A model generated the notes under the pieces. It saw only the letters and a program-made list of their open reading frames with translations, was not told where the DNA came from and made no database searches. A stretch of DNA of 64,000 nucleotides from Prosthecobacter debontii (GTDB lineage: Bacteria > Verrucomicrobiota > Verrucomicrobiia > Verrucomicrobiales > Akkermansiaceae), in the NCBI GenBank assembly GCA_945869465.1, contig CAMBPB010000007.1, forward strand, positions 1 to 64,000, read 5' to 3'. This document shows positions 56,508-60,068 of this stretch, piece after piece. A program made the position numbers and the translations under genes. Position 1 is the first letter of the stretch. Every line of letters starts with the position of its first letter.

Positions 56508-56680
56508 ATGGAAGAACCACGACGCTATTTCCCCGAGATCCAGCTCACGTTCGCGGAGTGCCGCGTGCTGGGCTGCCTAATGGAGAAGGAGGGCACGACT
56601 CCGGCCTATTATCCCCTCACGCTGAACAGTCTGCAGTCCGCCTGCAATCAGACTTCCAACCGCCACCCGGTGAGCGATGT
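56508..56680 (+). pseudogene. 5' fragment of a DUF480/YceH gene
   Basis: [46 protein letters not shown], then family similarity stops where antisense sdhA sequence begins. Confidence 0.8.
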
Positions 56681-58653
56681 TACGCGTAGCTGCGGATGGA
56701 AACATGCACGTCTTCATAAACGAGCGGTTCCTTGTGCAGCACCGGCGGGCTATCGCCTTGGTATTCCCAGCAAGCGACGTGTGAGAACTGGTCGTCATGG
56801 CGTTTCGCCTCACCGGCCTGGGTGCTGCCGGCGATGACTTCCGGGTCGTTTTCGAAGAACTGATGTTCGGTGCGGAAGTGACCGCCGCAGGATTCCTCGC
56901 GTTCGAGGGCGTCGTAACACATCATCTCGCCGAATTCGAGGAAGTCGGCGACGCGGCCGGCCTTTTCGAGTTCCATGTTGACGCTTTCTCCGGAGCCGGG
57001 GATGAGCACGTTGTTCCAGAATTCCTCGCGGATTTGCGGGATTTTCTCCAGCGCTTCGGTGAGACCCTCGCGGGAACGGGCCATGCCGCATTTGTCCCAC
57101 ATGGTCATGCCGAGTTCGCGGTGGAAGGAATCGACAGTGCGCTTGCCCTGAATCGTAAACATTTTGGAAATGCGCTCGCGGGTTTCCGTTTCGGTTTGTT
57201 TGAACTCGGGCATGTCGGTGGTGACGGTGCCGGGTTTCTGGGTGACGAGATAGTTCGCGATGGTGGTGGGAATGACGAAATAACCATCGGCCAGCCCCTG
57301 CATCAGGGCGGACGCGCCGAGGCGGTTCGCGCCGTGGTCGGAGAAGTTAGCCTCGCCTAATACATGGAGGCCGGGAACGTTGGACATCAGGTTGTAGTCC
57401 ACCCACAGGCCGCCCATGGTGTAGTGAACGGCCGGATAGATCATCATCGGGCCCTTGTAGGGGTCTTCGCCGGCGATCTTCTCATACATTTGGAACAGGT
57501 TGCCGTAGCGGGAGCGGATGGTGGCCTCGCCGAGGCGCTCGGTGGCGTCGCGGAAATCCAGATAGACGCCGAGTCCGGTGGGTGCCACGCCGCGGCCGTC
57601 ATCGCAGACTTCCTTGGCTGCGCGGGAGGAAATATCGCGCGGCGAGAGATTGCCGAACGACGGGTATTTGCGCTCCAGAAAGTAGTCGCGCTGGTCTTCG
57701 GGCACGTCGTTGGGGCTGATCTGCTTGTTGCGGAGTTTTGCGGCGGCCTCCTTGGATTTCGGCACCCAGATGCGGCCGTCGTTGCGGAGCGACTCGGACA
57801 TCAGGGTGAGTTTGGATTGGTAATCTCCGCTGACCGGGATGCAGGTCGGGTGGATCTGGGTGTAGCAGGGGTTGGCGAAGAGGGCGCCGCGTCTGGCGGC
57901 GCGCCAGGCGGCGGTGACGTTGCAGCCCATCGCGTTGGTGGAGAGGAAAAAGACATTGCCATAGCCACCGGTGGCGAGAATCACGGCGTCCGCCGCATGG
58001 GTGCTGATCTTGCCGTTGGTGAGATCGCGCGTGACGATGCCCTTGGCGTGGCCGTTGACCAGCACGAGGTCGAGCATCTCGGTGCGCGCAAACATCTTCA
58101 CGCCGCCCTTGTGGATTTCCTTCTCAAGCGCCTGATAACAGCCGATGAGAAGCTGCTGGCCGGTTTGGCCGCGGGCGTAGAAGGTGCGGGAAACCTGCGA
58201 GCCGCCAAACGAGCGGTTGTCGAGCAAGCCGCCGTATTCTCGGGCGAAGGGCACGCCCTGCGCAACGCACTGGTCGATGATCGAGTTGGAAACCTCCGCA
58301 AGGCGATAGACGTTGCCTTCCCGGGCGCGGAAGTCGCCGCCTTTGATCGTGTCATAGAACAGGCGGCGCACCGAATCGCCGTCGTTCTGATAGTTCTTGG
58401 TGGCGTTGATGCCGCCCTGCGCGGCGATCGAGTGGGCGCGGCGCGGGCTGTCCTGATAGCAGAAGCACTTCACCTGATAGCCAAGCTCGGCGAGCGAGGC
58501 GGCGGCGGCTCCGCCGGCGAGGCCGGACCCGACGACGATGACGGAGAATTTCCGCTTGTTAGCCGGGTTGATGAGTTTCGAGTCCATCTTGTGTTTGGAC
58601 CACTTCTGTTCAAGGGGGCCGGACGGGATCTTGCTGTCGAGGACGATGGACAT
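56680..58653 (-). CDS. sdhA: Succinate dehydrogenase/fumarate reductase flavoprotein subunit
   Basis: [75 protein letters not shown]. Confidence 0.95.
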
Positions 58654-58661
58654 GGCGCTTG

Positions 58662-58696
58662 GGATTGGAAATTGATGATTGGAGATTGATTATTGG
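58662..58696. repeat. Inverted repeat, sdhA side of the four-helix-bundle cassette
   Basis: ggattggaaattgatgattggagattgattattgg; 28/35 match to the reverse complement of 59077-59111. Confidence 0.85.
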
Positions 58697-58708
58697 AAGA
58701 GGATTGGC

Positions 58709-59065
58709 TCAATCGGCGTTTTGGCGGCTGGTTTTGATGGAGGCGCAGAAGATGGCGGTGAGTTCGGTGGCTTCCTGCCACAGGGGAGTGACTTTTTCCG
58801 GAGCAAGAATGCTGTCTTCGATGATGAGCTCCATCCAGAGGGCGGATTCGTCCGCTTCTTCGGCGGCGGTGCCGGCTTTGGAGGCGAAATCGGCGCGGGA
58901 TTTTGCAAGGCAGGCGGCACGGTAGTTGGCCGTGACCGAGGTTCCCGACCGGATGAGCTGGTTAGCAATGGTGCGTCCCACCTTGTCATCAGGGAGGGCG
59001 CGCACCAAGTGGATCACCCGCAATGAAAACTGCTTGCAGCGCGCCTTGAGTTCGTCCGGTGTCAT
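58709..59065 (-). CDS. Four-helix-bundle protein (23S rRNA IVS / S23 / bAvd-like family)
   Basis: FSLRVIHLVRALPDDKVGRTIANQLIRSGTSVTANYRAACLAKSRADFASKAGTAAEEADESALWMELI. Confidence 0.85.
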   Translation of the reverse strand: MTPDELKARCKQFSLRVIHLVRALPDDKVGRTIANQLIRSGTSVTANYRAACLAKSRADFASKAGTAAEEADESALWMELIIEDSILAPEKVTPLWQEATELTAIFCASIKTSRQNAD

Positions 59066-59076
59066 GATCGCAATAT

Positions 59077-59111
59077 CCAATTTACAATAATCAATAATCA
59101 ATTTCCAATCC
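59077..59111. repeat. Inverted repeat, sdhC side of the four-helix-bundle cassette
   Basis: ccaatttacaataatcaataatcaatttccaatcc; includes the sdhC stop codon. Confidence 0.85.
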
Positions 59112-59817
59112 ATCCGATGAGAATGGCCACGGGGATGGAAACGAAGCCTGCCCAGATGAAGAGGCTTAAGCCGATGGAAACCTGCCGGATGAGCGTGGAG
59201 GCTTTTTTGGAGCGGAAACCCAGCGTTTGGAAGATCGAACCGACGCCGTGCATCAGGTGCGAGCAGAGCAGGGTCATCGCGATGACGTAGAAGAGTGAGA
59301 CATACCAGCAGCCGGGGCTGAAGCCGTCGATCACCATTTTCCATGCGTCGTGGCGTTCGAGGCCGGTTTTGGCGAGGTGCTCGGGGTCAACGTAGGAATC
59401 GTAGGTGTTGCCAGCGCGGACGGTGAAATGGAGGAGGTGATAGATGACGAAGGCCAGGATGGTCAGGCCGGAAAGGATCATCGTGCGCGACGATTTGGAG
59501 GCCTGGATGGTGGTTTGGCACTCGTAGGCCTTGCGGGCCGCGCGATTCTGGCGGGTCAGCGAGACGGTGGCGGCGATGTGGGCGCCGACCATTGCCAGCA
59601 TCACGATGCGAAACACCCAGATGCCCGCGCCGTGGAGCAGGTGATGGAGGAAGTAAGCGTAATCGTTGAACGCCTCCCGTCCTGCGAAGACGGCCAGGTT
59701 TCCGACGAGGTGCCCCACCACGAAAAGGACCAGAACAATTCCGGTGAGGGCGACGATGAGCTTTTTCCCGATGGAGGAGGACCAATAGGAATCGAGGCAA
59801 CGGGTGAGGGCATTCAT
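59098..59817 (-). CDS. sdhC: Succinate dehydrogenase cytochrome b subunit
   Basis: SIGKKLIVALTGIVLVLFVVGHLVGNLAVF; five hydrophobic segments; HLMHGVGSIFQTLG. Confidence 0.9.
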   Translation of the reverse strand: MNALTRCLDSYWSSSIGKKLIVALTGIVLVLFVVGHLVGNLAVFAGREAFNDYAYFLHHLLHGAGIWVFRIVMLAMVGAHIAATVSLTRQNRAARKAYECQTTIQASKSSRTMILSGLTILAFVIYHLLHFTVRAGNTYDSYVDPEHLAKTGLERHDAWKMVIDGFSPGCWYVSLFYVIAMTLLCSHLMHGVGSIFQTLGFRSKKASTLIRQVSIGLSLFIWAGFVSIPVAILIGWIGN

Positions 59818-60068
59818 GACAATGAGGAAGGTGGCGGCGGCCGAGCGAGAAATAGACGGGCGATCCGGGGTTTTCAAGTGGAGAGTCGGGCAGGGACGGA
59901 ATCCTTGGCATGAATGGCAGGATTTGCGGAGTGGTGCGGAGTTCACGCTGCGTTGCAGGGGCATTGCCTCCGGACGGCGTTTGGCTGGAACTCACGGGAA
60001 CGTCCCTGCTTCTCCGCGCTTCGCCCGGGACTTGGCCCGCGGTCTGCTAAATTGGCGGCACAAACCCC

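Follow-up and report, generated by a model that had tools for sequence, protein, structure and literature searches.

The known systems closest to the element analysed here include the intervening sequences (IVSs) of 23S rRNA genes in Leptospira and Coxiella, which measure about 430 to 460 bp and carry an open reading frame (ORF) for the S23p protein within a hairpin of inverted ends. In Coxiella, tandem GACAGAT heptamers stand directly before this ORF in a strain-variable number (PMC4990558), and S23p is reported to be decaying and not made. The S23/IVS protein family has no known function, and heptamer arrays have been reported repeatedly with no known origin (PMC4990558, PMC4692102, PMC4679880, PMC2700814). 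Such orphan arrays, among them TAACTGA (PMC4679880), GGGAATC and GGGGA(C/T)T (PMC4692102) and the heptamers of Geobacter (PMC2700814), have a period of 7 bp and are mostly intergenic between aligned genes, although some lie within genes; the reports deal for the most part with arrays that stand singly, and they make no connection to the four-helix-bundle (4HB) family to which S23p belongs. Two further systems invite comparison. Avd of diversity-generating retroelements (DGRs) is a pentameric four-helix bundle that works with RNA and a reverse transcriptase (RT), and MITEs and other transposase-less units are short, have inverted ends and encode no transposase of their own.

The window, the whole stretch of 64,000 nucleotides that was analysed, contains a member of this protein family in a respiratory operon. 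The features of the locus, in the order of transcription, are as follows.

59098 to 59964, minus strand: sdhC, cytochrome b558 subunit, the upstream operon neighbour (TIGR02046, 8.7e-45); the coordinates are those of the longest ORF, and the real start is possibly further in.
59071 to 59109, minus strand: 5' arm, before the gene, inverted repeat and heptamer array, (ATTGNNN)n on the coding strand; it holds the sdhC stop codon.
58709 to 59065, minus strand: 4HB protein gene, 118 aa, S23/IVS family (TIGR02436 / PF05635).
58664 to 58695, minus strand: 3' arm, after the gene, inverted repeat and heptamer array, (CAATNNN)n on the coding strand.
56680 to 58653, minus strand: sdhA, flavoprotein subunit, the downstream operon neighbour (NF005749 / TIGR01811).

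The initial annotation had described the ORF as an IVS/S23-type four-helix bundle, and profile searches bear this out: it matches TIGR02436 (3.6e-21; 75.4 bits against a curated cut-off of 24) and PF05635 (2e-12; 47.7 bits against 33.8). It had also placed the ORF in an interval that is normally short. The sdhC-sdhA gap is indeed 444 bp in the window, whereas it is 11 to 77 bp in the 26 relatives, among 30 loci, that lack the gene. As described, the right arm contains the stop codon of sdhC (59098-59100). The unit has its protein family and a size of about 430-460 bp in common with the rRNA IVS, from which it differs in lying between the protein genes of an operon, outside any 23S rRNA gene, and in having a heptamer array as each of its arms. 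The element matched no known RNA family and no defence system in PADLOC.

The same annotation had bounded the ORF with 35-bp imperfect inverted repeats. The inverted pair is real (58662-58697 and 59076-59111, 36 nt, 81% complementary) and stands nearly symmetrically, 10-11 bp from the two ends of the ORF, but the repeats are not fixed termini: they are heptamer arrays, with (CAATNNN)n at 58664-58695 on the minus strand and at 59071-59109 on the plus strand, so that much of the mismatch between the arms sits in the NNN positions. The layout of the window element is 5'-(ATTGNNN)n-gene-(CAATNNN)n-3', and its right arm is the sole period-7 run scoring at least 13 across the 64 kb.

The predicted structure of the window protein (monomer model, pLDDT 97.3) consists of four helices, and its nearest solved structures are 2RLD (TM 0.82-0.86) and 2GSC (TM 0.68-0.82); the solved relatives contain five chains. 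Avd (4DWL) and a DGR complex (8UB7) are more distant, at TM 0.70-0.73. This common fold, together with a sibling protein that matches the PHROG family 'Avd protein of DGR', would be expected if the gene were the relic of a DGR in which the Avd accessory protein had outlasted the RT and the repeats. We regard such an origin as very improbable, since the closest structures and families are those of S23/TIGR02436 rather than of Avd, the window protein itself has no PHROG match, no RT was found among the ORFs beside the gene and none exceeded the cut-off in the 3.6-Mb genome, which is 93.5% complete and comprises 161 contigs. The window unit differs from Avd in containing no RT and in encoding a protein structurally nearer to S23 proteins. 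One RT-like fragment with a YADD motif reaches a contig end elsewhere in this genome, where it is truncated and adjoins a recombinase-like ORF (L259, G000:C34), so that the genome may yet encode an RT.

The genome holds one further PF05635 gene (L004, G000:C3:65325-65630), whose arms are (AGACAGA)n on one side and (TCTGTCT)n on the other. Since the two elements differ in their heptamer, what they have in common is the architecture and not the sequence. The neighbours of the second gene, read from their ORFs, are presumably metK-like and ahcY-like genes, and its heptamers are similar to the GACAGAT units found in the IVS of Coxiella.

To see how general this architecture is, we compared the flanks of 4HB genes from many genomes with several controls. 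Among 59 elements of the same family and genus, identity at a lag of 7 was 0.385 for one flank and 0.395 for the other, while controls gave 0.253. In 48 of the 59, the complementarity of an element's own arms exceeded the 99th percentile of control pairs, compared with 6.6% when arms were swapped between elements. A broader set of 90 elements from 89 loci gave lag-7 identities of 0.425 and 0.398 against 0.264, with own arms complementary in 61 of the 90 and in 2.2% after swapping. This set spans Bacillota, Bacteroidota, Pseudomonadota, Planctomycetota, Chloroflexota, Patescibacteria, cyanobacterial plasmids, one archaeal MAG and others; it combines the 80 best matches from a single motif scan with selected plasmid copies and is therefore no unbiased census. 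The flanks of other ORFs in the same loci are a fairer control: arm-to-arm inverted complementarity was found for 73.9% of 203 4HB genes and 2.5% of 160 other ORFs, and period-7 runs on both sides for 41.9% and 1.3%, respectively. Overall, 272 of 432 flanks of 4HB genes contained period-7 runs, compared with 24 of 1189 control stretches, and a further 20 flanks appear to be 8-bp periodic. The 272 flanks fall into 161 heptamer classes; the heptamer varies between elements and agrees within one. Where both neighbouring genes are co-directional, 120 4HB genes lie in sense and 8 in antisense. Because elements within a genus are related to one another, the true number of independent events is smaller than these counts suggest.

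The array-flanked 4HB architecture is thus well supported. Of the expectation that the ends would recur beside such genes, the arrays hold true for most of the loci examined, while a fixed end sequence does not: a 35-bp terminal repeat common to the copies is ruled out by the variability of the arrays. Fixed terminal repeats of the kind found in IS-derived MITEs are absent, given that the two elements of the window's genome already differ and that there are 161 heptamer classes overall; further differences from MITEs are that the ends are drifting arrays, that a protein gene is retained and that neither a parent transposase nor a target duplication is known. Spread by phages was also considered: one query gave no match in annotated phage records, and uncultivated viral contigs yielded 32 loci, many with period-7 flanks. 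On cyanobacterial plasmids, a 4HB gene separates cas6 from cas4 in a type I-D CRISPR operon, and another lies in antisense between the two ribonucleotide reductase genes (L193 and L194). In Flavobacterium succinicans (L407, G220), TCAGTTA-class arrays border the gene on either side but run in the same direction instead of being inverted, and TCAGTTA is the complement of the published TAACTGA repeat.

Single arrays also occur on their own. Of 30 loci with the CAATNNN-array pattern, several of which are overlapping hits to one array, 27 had no 4HB gene within 1.5 kb. Arrays are thus more widespread than the cassettes. They may be debris of cassettes; alternatively, they may form an independent repeat class, growing by slippage and fold-back copying, in which the 4HB gene merely inserts or survives without causing the arrays. 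The abundance of solitary arrays, mostly without the gene, fits this account, as do the 430 TAACTGA-array matches in one cyanobacterium, none of them beside an inspected 4HB gene, and the heptamer arrays reported without such a gene in Geobacter, Xanthomonas and Nostoc (PMC2700814, PMC4692102). It sits poorly with the agreement of arms within but not between elements, with the absence of such pairs around other ORFs in the same loci, and with the position of the arms at the edges of the one unit that two unrelated contexts have in common (L109 and L258, below). On this balance we judge it a rather unlikely explanation. The cyanobacterium in question (Microcoleaceae, G213, the genome of L172) has about ten PF05635 matches, several with internal stop codons; its TAACTGA arrays were considered as 4HB ends and rejected, as the 4HB genes inspected there bear other flanking repeats.

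That the unit moves is suggested most directly by two elements from different species of the genus, L109 and L258, whose units of 456/457 bp agree at 90% of positions. Beyond the unit, most stretches are 50-61% identical, which is about chance for a gapped alignment, although the 20 bp immediately to the left score 70%; tblastx found no homology between the flanking sequences. As the high identity is confined between the outer array edges and the flanks are unrelated, what moves appears to be the cassette together with its bounding arrays. Neither a target duplication nor polymorphism between strains was seen. The initial annotation's compact cassette with no recognised transposase is upheld in this respect, and mobility is supported by this clean pair together with patterns of presence and absence. 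L109 and L258, the only clean pair showing movement, belong to another subfamily of the genus than the window's, so that one unit with sharp ends in unrelated contexts is seen in a sister subfamily and not for the window copy itself. Several members of that subfamily (L109, L199, L206, L221 and L258) lie in or beside putative recombinase genes at differing points, the recombinase gene often being partly missing; from their ORFs, we take these genes to be tyrosine-recombinase-like, of the integron or Xer type. Copies on two plasmids of one Calothrix strain were rejected as a case of cassette movement because they also share their neighbouring genes.

At sdhC-sdhA, the history appears to be a long one. 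The gene occupies this site in eight genomes of the genus, intact in G000 (the window's genome), G074, G189, G011, G207 and G002 and damaged in G125 and G008, some copies being frameshifted or deleted. A recent landing, which the initial annotation had implied, is contradicted by the seven other genomes that share the gene at this place and by a synonymous divergence of the 4HB gene similar to that of sdhC among genomes of the genus, a pattern that the annotation had itself listed among the observations that would count against its reading. Empty sites, which it had proposed to look for, do exist in the 26 relatives without the gene, and in the clade of the window's genome they often retain CAATNNN-like units that point the same way as the 3' arm; empty and filled spacers are too diverged for base-by-base alignment. 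On a tree of sdhC plus sdhA with 31 rows, presence of the gene needs 8 changes, no fewer than with shuffled labels. Between intact copies dN/dS is 0.05-0.22 (simple counting, with dS partly saturated), which distinguishes the window protein, under purifying selection, from the decaying S23p of Coxiella. Our reading of these sequences is that the insertion is probably old and was inherited within the genus, that selection acted on the protein for as long as it was there, and that it has been lost several times; species may also have exchanged the gene by recombination, or it may have inserted at this site more than once. Horizontal homing into the site is not borne out by G189 and G011, which are close in the 4HB gene and in sdhA alike.

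Purifying selection could also mean that the gene serves its host, the protein controlling or stabilising the operon mRNA autogenously through the array hairpin, with mobility ancient or irrelevant. The sense orientation within operons and the persistence of the gene at the pyrR-pyrB, ABC-transporter and sdhC-sdhA sites would also agree with a host function. Its patchy presence, with the 8 changes on the tree, and the frameshifted and deleted copies argue the other way, and the host operons (metK-ahcY, sdh, nrd, cas) are unrelated and have no common theme; we consider a host-useful operon gene unlikely.

A second site, upstream of an ABC-transporter ATPase gene, illustrates how varied these states can be. 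Relatives have either empty spacers of 12-48 bp or full elements with differing array types; others carry shortened elements with intact arms (L336 and L337) or inverted arrays with no gene (L326 and L328), which form strong predicted hairpins (z -7.9 and -4.4) and recall gene-less MITEs. Full, decayed, gene-less and empty states have thus been shown to exist at fixed sites. In the orthologues at this site, both arms are of the same unit type, either TAAA-type or CAA-type. Such co-change of the arms is clear here only, mixed at pyrR-pyrB and liv and undetectable between orthologues at sdh, and as a general property it was therefore discarded. Some arms of L326 and L328, and likewise of L098, L106 and L107, look 8-bp rather than 7-bp periodic, for example with CAGCTTTT units.

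The initial annotation had also asked whether the RNA folds via the inverted repeats. In the predicted fold of the window unit (461 nt, z -2.28), the arms do close a terminal stem of 15 + 11 bp. Because of the sense bias, this hairpin and the kinship with the rRNA IVS and Avd, we favour an IVS-like element acting at the RNA level, whose pentameric product, we infer, binds the element's own arms. The operon transcript would fold with the arms as stem and the ORF as loop, as in the 23S rRNA IVS; the protein, a pentamer in solved relatives, would bind these arms, and the complex would protect or spread the unit. Our guess is that movement proceeds through an RNA, cDNA or single-stranded DNA intermediate, with the enzymes supplied in trans.

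Taken as a class, these elements are probably widespread and compact IVS-like cassettes, in which a 4HB gene lies between inverted, variable 7-bp arrays and is inserted in sense between operon genes. More tentatively, and with more doubt than confidence, they might constitute a categorically new class of mobile element, with members in bacteria and in at least one archaeal MAG. Each would be a cassette of one gene, whose 4HB protein recognises a 7-bp-periodic inverted array instead of a fixed sequence, so that the ends may drift to almost any heptamer while the arms stay matched. Some, at least, of the orphan heptamer arrays in bacterial genomes would be debris of such cassettes, and the 23S rRNA IVS would be a special case that landed in rRNA. 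The open-access literature, to which our search was confined (subscription papers and preprints lay outside it), contained no report connecting heptamer arrays to the 4HB family in general; the cassette is thus apparently an undescribed kind of element, and its novelty is provisional. With the S23/IVS family now tied to paired heptamer arrays under strong controls, with the unit and its ends specified, and with the element's own arms as the candidate binding partner of the protein, the function of the family and the origin of the arrays become directly testable in culturable hosts.

Arrays without a cassette are also found in the window's own genome, where some adjoin operon genes. Two CAATNNN arrays lie within the coding sequence of uvrA (L018, G000:C47), both in coding orientation, and add, for example, PNLQSPIPNLQS repeats.
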